From Microglena sp. YARC (Eukaryota; Chlorophyta; Chlorophyceae; Chlamydomonadales; Chlamydomonadaceae): DNA of 64,000 nucleotides. Below are positions 44,195 through 64,000 of this stretch, one piece after another; the first letter of the stretch is position 1, and each line of letters opens with the position of its first letter. A program made the translations under genes and the position numbers. Location: contig CM039464.1 in assembly GCA_022414725.1 (NCBI GenBank), forward strand, positions 8,723,447 through 8,787,446, written 5' to 3'. The notes beneath the pieces are model-generated. The model was given only the letters and a program-made list of their open reading frames with translations, made no database searches and was not told the DNA's origin.

Positions 44195-44340
44195 GGTCAC
44201 CACCCAGCTCACTCCTCTGTCCCAGCAAGGAGTGCAAAATACTCATTTCAGCTAGCGCTTGCATCCGCCGGTGCTAGCGTGTCACCTCCCTTGCCCCATA
44301 CAAGCTCTGAAATAGCCCATGACCATCCAGCCAACAACAA
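44195..44340 (-). repeat. Downstream duplicate of the ATG9 C-terminal coding end
   Basis: About 145 bases beyond the stop repeat the last coding stretch at about 44390-44530 in diverged form (both contain 'TCAGCTAGCGCTTGCATCCG'). The spacing is about 188 bp. This is the terminal-exon counterpart of the exon-edge duplications seen in the introns. Confidence 0.75.
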
Positions 44341-44375
44341 AATATTAATTAAATCATCAAAATCAGCCTGCACCC

Positions 44376-63352: not shown

Positions 63353-64000
63353 CTGCATGTGTGTGTGTTTGTGTGTGTTTGTGTGTGGTGGTGGTGGTGT
63401 GTGTATGTGTGTGTGTGAGTGTGTGTGTGTGCGCGTGCGTGAGTGTGTGACTGTGTAAACTAAAAACATGATGCGGCTCACGATGTCGTGCTCGTTCAGG
63501 TCCCTGCAGGTGTGTGTGTTTGTATGTGTTTGTGTGTGGTGGTGGTGGTGTGTGTGTGTGTGTGTGTGCGAGTGTGTGTGTGTGAGTGTGTGTGTGCGCG
63601 TGCGTGAGTGTGTGACTGTGTAAACTAAAAACATGATGCGGCTCACGATGTCGTGCTCGTTCAGGTCCCTGCATGTGTGTGTGTTTGTGTGTGTTTGTGT
63701 GTGGTGGTGGTGGTGTGTGTGTATGTGTGTGTGTGAGTGTGTGTGTGTGTGTGTGCGCGTGCGTGAGTGTGTGACTGTGTAAACTAAAAACATGATGCGG
63801 CTCACGATGTCGTGCTCGTTCAGGTCCCTGCAGGTGTGTGTGTTTGTGTGTGTTTGTGTGTGGTGGTGGTGGTGTGTGTGTGTGTGTGTGTGTGTGAGTG
63901 TGTGTGTGTGTGTGTGCGCATGCGTGAGTGTGTAACTGTGTAAACTAAAAACATGATGCGGCTCACGATGTCGTGCTCGTTCAGGTCCCTGCAGGTGTGT
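63353..64000. repeat. ATG9 intron: ~160-bp array, each unit with an exon 5' edge and acceptor
   Basis: Four copies (starting near 63467, 63632, 63791 and 63952) of the first ~38 bases of the 63155-63352 exon with acceptor ('CATGATGCGGCTCACGATGT', 'CGTTCAGGTCCCTGCA'), separated by GT-rich tracts. The array runs off the window. Confidence 0.95.

Follow-up and report, generated by a model that had tools for sequence, protein, structure and literature searches.

Introduction

Tandem repeats whose unit spans an exon-intron boundary have been described in lancelets (amphioxus) as "mirage" minisatellites, in Adh3 and the globin genes BflGb6 and BflGb9 (PMC3087553) and in PGBD5 and troponin C (PMC3902484), and for lancelets both undisturbed splicing and length instability, between haplotypes or in somatic tissue, are reported. 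In human segmental-duplication genes, minisatellites have driven changes of gene structure (PMC2812944), and the Rogers model, named in PMC3087553 and PMC2812944, derives intron gain from tandem duplication of a proto-splice site. With these systems we compared a 64,000-nucleotide stretch of the Microglena sp. YARC genome (GenBank assembly GCA_022414725.1, contig CM039464.1, positions 8,723,447 to 8,787,446), hereafter the window, which contains an ATG9 gene whose exon edges recur in the adjoining introns. Exon-edge copying is not peculiar to ATG9, as it occurs also in the kinesin and CCT chaperonin genes of this genome. An original prediction, made from the letters of this stretch, had known of no described process of such a kind, a statement that the published lancelet mirages overturn.

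Results

Exon edges of ATG9 are copied into the adjoining introns

The exons of ATG9 were located by Pfam PF04109 matches, obtained for 3 of 10 tested frames, together with the reading frame. AG and GT border each of the nine mapped exons. The joined translation of exons A to I plus the start of K gave a single alignment to ATG9 of PDB 7d0i (residues 3-333, E 3.6e-71) without a gap at any exon joint; compared with that protein, exon A contains a 17-residue insertion and exon C is short by 6 residues. Genome-wide (568 Mb, 2390 contigs), the PF04109 matches number six and are confined to the ATG9 locus, where one falls upstream of the window. The present-day ATG9 introns are 1.0-3.9 kb long. The exons, in order of transcription, are as follows.

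63155..63352, minus strand: exon A, 198 nt (Pfam PF04109; AG/GT flanks)
60439..60518, minus strand: exon C, 80 nt (AG/GT flanks; frame continuity in the joined translation)
59164..59356, minus strand: exon D, 193 nt (Pfam PF04109; AG/GT flanks)
56991..57111, minus strand: exon E, 121 nt (AG/GT flanks; joined translation)
55882..55979, minus strand: exon F, 98 nt, without detected copies of either edge (AG/GT flanks; edge-shuffle test)
54531..54681, minus strand: exon G, 151 nt (Pfam PF04109; AG/GT flanks)
50576..50654, minus strand: exon H, 79 nt (AG/GT flanks; joined translation)
48944..49007, minus strand: exon I, 64 nt (AG/GT flanks; joined translation)
47372..47617, minus strand: exon K, 246 nt (AG/GT flanks; start in the joined translation)
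44376..46280, minus strand: 634-aa open frame, without Pfam match, the probable last exon, which starts somewhere inside it
44572..44761, minus strand: in-frame tandem duplication of 90 bp (30 codons) within the open frame of the probable last exon

The 90-bp duplication is the sort of exon-interior duplication that selection could tolerate.

Self-BLAST of the ATG9 exons against the whole window (E<=0.01) returned 44 extra exon-derived matches, and 44/44 were on the same strand and, as had been predicted, on the side of the edge copied. Twenty-four extend to within 3 nt of the 5' exon end, all in the upstream intron; 14 extend to the 3' exon end, all in the downstream intron; and the remaining 6, though truncated, are closer to the expected end than to the other and likewise on the correct side. 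Neither inverted copies nor copies elsewhere in the window were found at this threshold. The arrays are given below.

63353..64000, minus strand: A 5' array, 4 copies of the acceptor followed by the initial 37 nt of exon A, unit ~161-165 bp, up to the window edge
61793..63154, minus strand: A 3' array, 3'-terminal 69 nt of exon A with the donor, 5 copies spaced ~181 bp, followed by 2 more, diverged, that contain 20-24 nt
60625..60647, minus strand: C 5' remnant, 23 nt, 87% identity, acceptor AG retained
59357..59812, minus strand: D 5' array, 2 copies of the acceptor with the initial 106 nt of exon D
58579..59163, minus strand: D 3' array, last 86 nt of exon D plus donor, 3 copies and a truncated fourth, unit ~152 bp
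57112..57351, minus strand: E 5' array, 2 copies and 2 partial ones of the acceptor with the initial 44-46 nt of exon E, unit ~64 bp
56676..56990, minus strand: E 3' array, last 54-57 nt of exon E plus donor, 2 copies
54682..55267, minus strand: G 5' array, acceptor plus first 23-25 nt of exon G, 3 copies
54086..54323, minus strand: G 3' copy, last 49 nt of exon G (98%) plus donor and intron, with an adjoining 26-nt inner piece
52361..53884, minus strand: H 5' array, 112-bp unit with the acceptor and the initial 24 nt, present 13 times, and one 38-nt copy, ~1.7 kb from exon H
48495..48784, minus strand: I 3' array, last 18-21 nt of exon I plus donor, 3 copies ~131 bp apart
47113..47298, minus strand: K 3' array, last 71 nt of exon K plus donor, 1 copy and a decayed second

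When the 40-nt exonic edge alone was compared with 100 shuffles of the adjoining (own-side) intron, 12 of the 18 junctions exceeded all 100 shuffles (A5, A3, C5, D5, D3, E5, E3, G5, G3, H5, I3, and K3), whereas C3, F5, F3, H3, I5, and K5 did not rise above them. The C5 remnant was picked up by this test and lies below the self-BLAST threshold. In the wrong-side control, the 3' edge of exon C (13-nt match, score 12) also beat the shuffles, though these were of own-side intron, and the 5' edge of exon I came near the threshold (score 12). The prediction that eight or nine of ten exons have copied edges is thus borne out for eight of the nine mapped exons; exon F has no copies, and the 5' edge of the last exon is not fixed.

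The predicted range of 1-14 copies per edge agrees with the counts, and the splice site is usually copied along, AG being retained in 25/26 and GT in 15/17 of the listed ATG9 copies. At 11/18 junctions the copies run across the junction, with at least 18 exonic nt plus at least 8 nt of intron beside the splice site. The idea that the exon interior is almost never copied holds only as an edge bias, and a graded one: the fraction of exon positions with one or more copies stays level to 60 nt from the edge (0.61, 0.53, 0.64) and then falls (0.44, 0.29, 0), mean copy number declines from 2.2 at 0-20 nt to 0.68 at 80-100 nt, positions at 100-125 nt are never copied, and in exons D and E the copies from both sides jointly cover 99-100% of the exon. 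Nor is the intact exon always the terminal copy, since ~1.7 kb separate exon H from the end of its 14-copy array.

A same-strand search with the 301-nt exon just upstream of the window (C3:8790605-8790905) gave ten upstream matches, seven of the first 71 nt, two of 158 nt, and one of positions 35-158; its 3' edge is copied three times downstream.

Edge copies are common in kinesin and CCT genes and rare in light-harvesting genes

The analysis covered 70 loci from three further families plus ATG9 in this one assembly, with the exon borders of kinesins and CCTs taken from hidden Markov model matches. The kinesin sample comprised the best 30 of 128 PF00225 matches with 1.5 kb on each side (by coordinates about 23 gene places, thus not 30 independent genes; L021 and L035 share one upstream array), the light-harvesting (LHC) sample the best 30 of 118 matches, and the CCT sample 10 of 64 matches, hand-picked without a rule.

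Edge copies were found in 23/30 kinesin matches, on both sides in 15. All 130 same-strand copies were on the expected side (68 upstream and nearer the 5' end, 62 downstream and nearer the 3' end), and the 5' edge was affected at 21/30 and the 3' edge at 17/30 loci. By the same rule ATG9 would count 7/9 exons (F none; the H array is >1.5 kb distant). Five of the 10 CCT matches were positive (L077 weakly), with 21/21 same-strand copies on the expected side. By contrast with the kinesins (Fisher P 3e-8; kinesin versus CCT, P 0.13), only 2/30 LHC matches were positive on the expected side (L054; L065 weakly). Six LHC loci had any hit. Of the 7 hits in all, 3 agreed with the expected side and 4 did not; these 4 were 25-46 nt at 76-88% and presumably reflect the likeness of helix 1 and helix 3 of LHC proteins. 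The check in other genes that had been proposed therefore came out in favor of the prediction in kinesins and CCTs and not in LHC genes, two of three families, and the edge-linked, side-true pattern in the former two agrees with the suggested intron growth by repeated junction duplication.

In kinesins, where splice sites were crudely chosen, AG was retained in 26/47 and GT in 48/64. No Tandem Repeats Finder (TRF) array of period >=30 lay wholly inside the exon match in the 30 kinesin matches. Thirteen inverted 17-nt matches, all in kinesin locus L035, were excluded from the kinesin count; lying at L035:1828-3194, they correspond to a kinesin exon end at ~114-bp intervals and are the sole inverted copies in the kinesin set.

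Tandem repeats make up 49% of the kinesin flanks, 29% of the CCT flanks, and 6% of the LHC flanks, compared with a mean of 46% in eight random 3-kb stretches; for periods >=60 the shares are 32% in kinesin flanks, 1% in LHC flanks, and 21% in random stretches. LHC genes are clustered (e.g., C2:53.99-54.17 Mb). In a genome otherwise rich in tandem repeats, the 30 loci sampled contain hardly any. The genome also contains series of one-exon, long-open-frame matches, reaching as far as kinesin profile positions 239-243 and covering kinase positions 1-255, on large and small contigs; these look like dispersed multi-copy families.

The family contrast bears on whether transcription-linked damage, with breaks or slippage at splice-site R-loops, seeds the duplications, as the original prediction had considered. 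The transposon-rich 9-43 kb of the window, used as a non-host-gene control, has same-strand local copies in only 2/67 tiles, and GC skew is positive just downstream of 5/9 ATG9 exons (D, E, F, H, and I), both in line with such an origin. However, exons A, C, G, and K show negative skew past the donor, and three of these four have copies of their 3' edge. In kinesins both kinds of edge are affected to a similar degree, and random stretches are tandem-repeat-rich too. Light-harvesting genes are highly expressed, and their near lack of copies argues against a driving role of transcription, provided that their transcription is strong in this organism as well. With the mixed GC skew of ATG9, this makes an R-loop repair origin very unlikely. 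Selection for compact introns would yield the same kinesin/LHC contrast.

Divergence of the copies

Identity of the copies to the exon ranges from 72 to 100%. In kinesins and CCTs together, 33/41 differences from the exon that are common to at least three copies are synonymous (33:8), compared with 65/224 single-copy differences (65:159; Fisher P 7e-10; equal-rate expectation 0.23). The corresponding ATG9 figures are 15/20 shared (15:5) and 36/83 single-copy differences (36:47), the latter counting one H change, common to twelve copies, twelve times; 11 differences in arrays with a single copy are omitted. Of 151 kinesin and CCT copies, 40 have a net frameshift within the exonic portion that was aligned. 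As shared differences are mostly synonymous and single copies drift, the exon lineage has been maintained by selection. A constant-donor model, in which the exon keeps feeding the array and identity falls with distance, was rejected because no clear trend was seen (Spearman -0.13, P 0.15, 130 kinesin copies). At kinesin locus L069 (5110-6640, minus orientation), several lengths of the exon's 5'-edge copy compose a 366-bp higher-order repeat of 4.2 units, 97% alike, so that arrays have passed through more than one expansion round.

This divergence pattern speaks against coding copies and also against an assembly artefact. The window does contain a 1000-N gap, tandem arrays are hard to assemble, and one lancelet mirage is described as misassembled in a draft. 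Nevertheless, the copies are only 72-100% identical to the exon, with the synonymous bias among shared differences, and one arrangement is common to ATG9, kinesins, and CCTs, located on several chromosomes, yet hardly occurs in LHC genes, so an artefact is extremely improbable, though copy numbers may still be wrong. Judged by their divergence, the edge copies are old and not assembly errors.

The splice sites within the copies raise a further explanation, that stacked donors and acceptors allow nested removal of long introns or serve as decoys. In ATG9 introns, donor copies occupy the 5' part and acceptor copies the 3' part, an order in which inner pairs could splice first, and the high retention of AG and GT in ATG9 would fit such a role. 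This donors-before-acceptors order follows, however, from duplication alone, and LHC introns manage without copies. Single copies also gather amino acid changes and frameshifts, though a splice-site role by itself would permit these. Overall, a splicing function is most unlikely.

Spacing and phase of the copies

The median spacing of kinesin copies is 170 bp over 128 intervals, 61 of which fall within 140-200 bp. Over 45 kinesin and CCT arrays the median is 178 bp (interquartile 151-234; range of array medians 62-442 bp). The exonic part of the unit varies widely, with array medians of 9-147 nt in 26 spanning arrays and 0.10-0.98 of the spacing in 45 arrays, and for 11 ATG9 arrays a uniform spread of the exonic share was not rejected (P 0.30). 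Such a broad exonic share fits a random phase rather than a fixed site. As a general rule at exonic breakpoints, microhomology was rejected: K3 shares the CACCTACC motif, D5 shares CA/CCC, and the others 0-2 nt (by eye).

Among ATG9 arrays of period >=60, 11/16 carry exon sequence. We simulated duplications placed at random, rejecting whole-exon and exon-interior events. Untargeted duplication yields the 11/16 share at introns of 150-250 bp, is marginal at 300 bp (P 0.057), and fails at 400 bp and above (P 0.007 at 400); with all 22 ATG9 arrays of period >=30, P is 0.15 at 300 bp and 0.026 at 400 bp. Because the present introns are too long, an untargeted account needs introns of at most ~300 bp when growth started.

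These results bear directly on the alternative of junction-targeted duplication, in which boundary DNA or chromatin, e.g., an exon-edge nucleosome or a re-used nucleosome-sized Okazaki fragment, favors duplication of segments of ~170 bp around junctions. The clustering of kinesin spacing at 140-200 bp and the roughly equal involvement of 5' and 3' edges would fit, and arrays of period >=30 lie within 15 nt of 8/16 ATG9 intron ends, where 0.6 would be expected at random in present introns. In the 6-kb kinesin intron of L069, all TRF arrays of period >=30 are in the last 2.1 kb, which holds the 5'-edge copies, and the start of this intron holds BLAST copies of the other exon's 3' edge. On the other hand, exon extents lack a fixed offset, the junction excess loses significance if introns were 150-300 bp when growth began, and LHC junctions are nearly array-free despite being junctions. 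Arrays away from junctions exist as well, in that 30/54 kinesin-flank arrays of period >=100 have no copy of the matched exon, though these may copy a neighboring exon. We consider targeting to be unlikely but a serious contender. Either growth started in short introns, as in the account favored below, or junctions are preferred.

Other features of the window

Window positions 9000-21500 hold several long open reading frames (ORFs) on both strands; among the ORFs tested, 19367-19993 matches the terminase/packaging family phrog_2666 (E 6.6e-5) and 20605-21432 gives two weak phage matches; beyond these matches, Polinton-like is our presumed label for the stretch. Positions 22000-30500 and 32000-41000 hold a copia retrotransposon (integrase, RVT_2) and an element resembling long interspersed nuclear elements (RVT_1, RNase H). 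An irregular tandem array at 3329-5200, with ~75-83 bp units and an inverted-repeat-like motif (by eye), adjoins the assembly gap. A search of viral contigs for loci related to the copia ORF, three ORFs of the Polinton-like stretch, and ATG9 confirmed none, and an Rfam scan gave no match at gathering thresholds.

Discussion

Taken together, these data suggest that introns of this alga probably grow by tandem duplication of junction-spanning segments, which is tolerated, whereas whole-exon and exon-interior duplications are lost. Local tandem duplication of a DNA segment lying across an exon-intron junction would lengthen the intron and leave a copy consisting of an exon piece and only one splice site. 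Under exon definition such a copy would not be read as an exon, the intact exon would still be spliced, and the duplication would be nearly neutral, whereas duplications of a whole exon, or out of frame within one, would alter the protein and be lost. The arrays may then expand and be homogenized by unequal exchange, while copies decay and simple-sequence spacers expand. In genes selected for compact introns, as light-harvesting genes may be, the process would be held down. In keeping with this account, the sole TRF duplication inside the ATG9 coding sequence is in frame.

Several observations weigh against it. With 1000-bp introns the simulated share has a P value of 1.7e-6, and the present 1.0-3.9 kb ATG9 introns are far too long for untargeted hits. 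Five hand-picked gaps between neighboring LHC matches measure 289, 383, 416, 494, and 643 bp, at or above the ~300-bp limit, which keeps targeting alive; other gaps are longer, e.g., 753 bp, and 1270 bp beside L054. Most exonic breakpoints in ATG9 have little microhomology (by eye). Random 3-kb stretches are about as repeat-rich as kinesin flanks, so the general repeat load would not be special to the introns sampled. Finally, that the copies are skipped in splicing is something we infer from sequence. A broader proposal, that junction-targeted duplication of nucleosome-sized (~170 bp) segments from exon edges acts genome-wide as a main source of growth for the introns and for the 568-Mb genome as a whole, having arisen independently of lancelet mirages, is unlikely.

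Intron lengthening is usually attributed to transposons; the introns described here visibly grow from their own junctions and leave dated copies of exon and splice site. With the exon as a built-in control for its copies and with the kinesin/LHC contrast, the rate, targeting, and selective cost of intron growth become measurable. The arrays also offer many natural cases in which the spliceosome chooses one junction among up to 15 similar ones.

Comparison with known systems

In the open-licence literature, boundary duplications were found for lancelet genes and, loosely, for human paralogues, and none for an alga, which is no proof of absence in print; the scale and the occurrence in a photosynthetic eukaryote look new. 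On sequence grounds, the ATG9 and kinesin copies look like lancelet mirages, with which they share three features: the unit spans the intron/exon boundary (11/18 ATG9 junctions and 26 kinesin arrays, with splice sites crudely chosen in the latter), 5' as well as 3' exon boundaries are affected in both ATG9 and kinesins, and many, not all, copies keep AG/GT, as the ATG9 counts illustrate. They differ from mirages in their longer spacing (median 178 bp, versus lancelet units of 10-72, 60, 108, and 150-160 bp), in their occurrence in a photosynthetic eukaryote and at most junctions of one gene at once (12/18 in ATG9), and in that most sampled kinesin exons are affected, with a strong contrast between gene families.

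As in the human minisatellite cases, tandem repeats at exon-intron boundaries alter gene structure, but there the main outcome is longer exons or the creation of introns, in young paralogues, and the average unit is 30 bp (PMC2812944). Tandem duplication involving splice sites is shared with the Rogers model, which, however, duplicates an exonic stretch and so creates a new intron inside an exon; the unit here spans an existing junction, holds intron sequence, and is present in many copies, and it is existing introns that grow. Duplication of a proto-splice site was accordingly rejected as a candidate, as its copies would be expected to lack older intron sequence and those at 11 ATG9 junctions continue at least 8 nt into the intron. 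Introners and transposon-borne introns have copies dispersed to unrelated sites. In the 64-kb window, the extent of our search for dispersed edges, no exon-edge copy was found elsewhere. Our data also suggest that lancelet mirages, about which little is known, belong to a broader class of such repeats.
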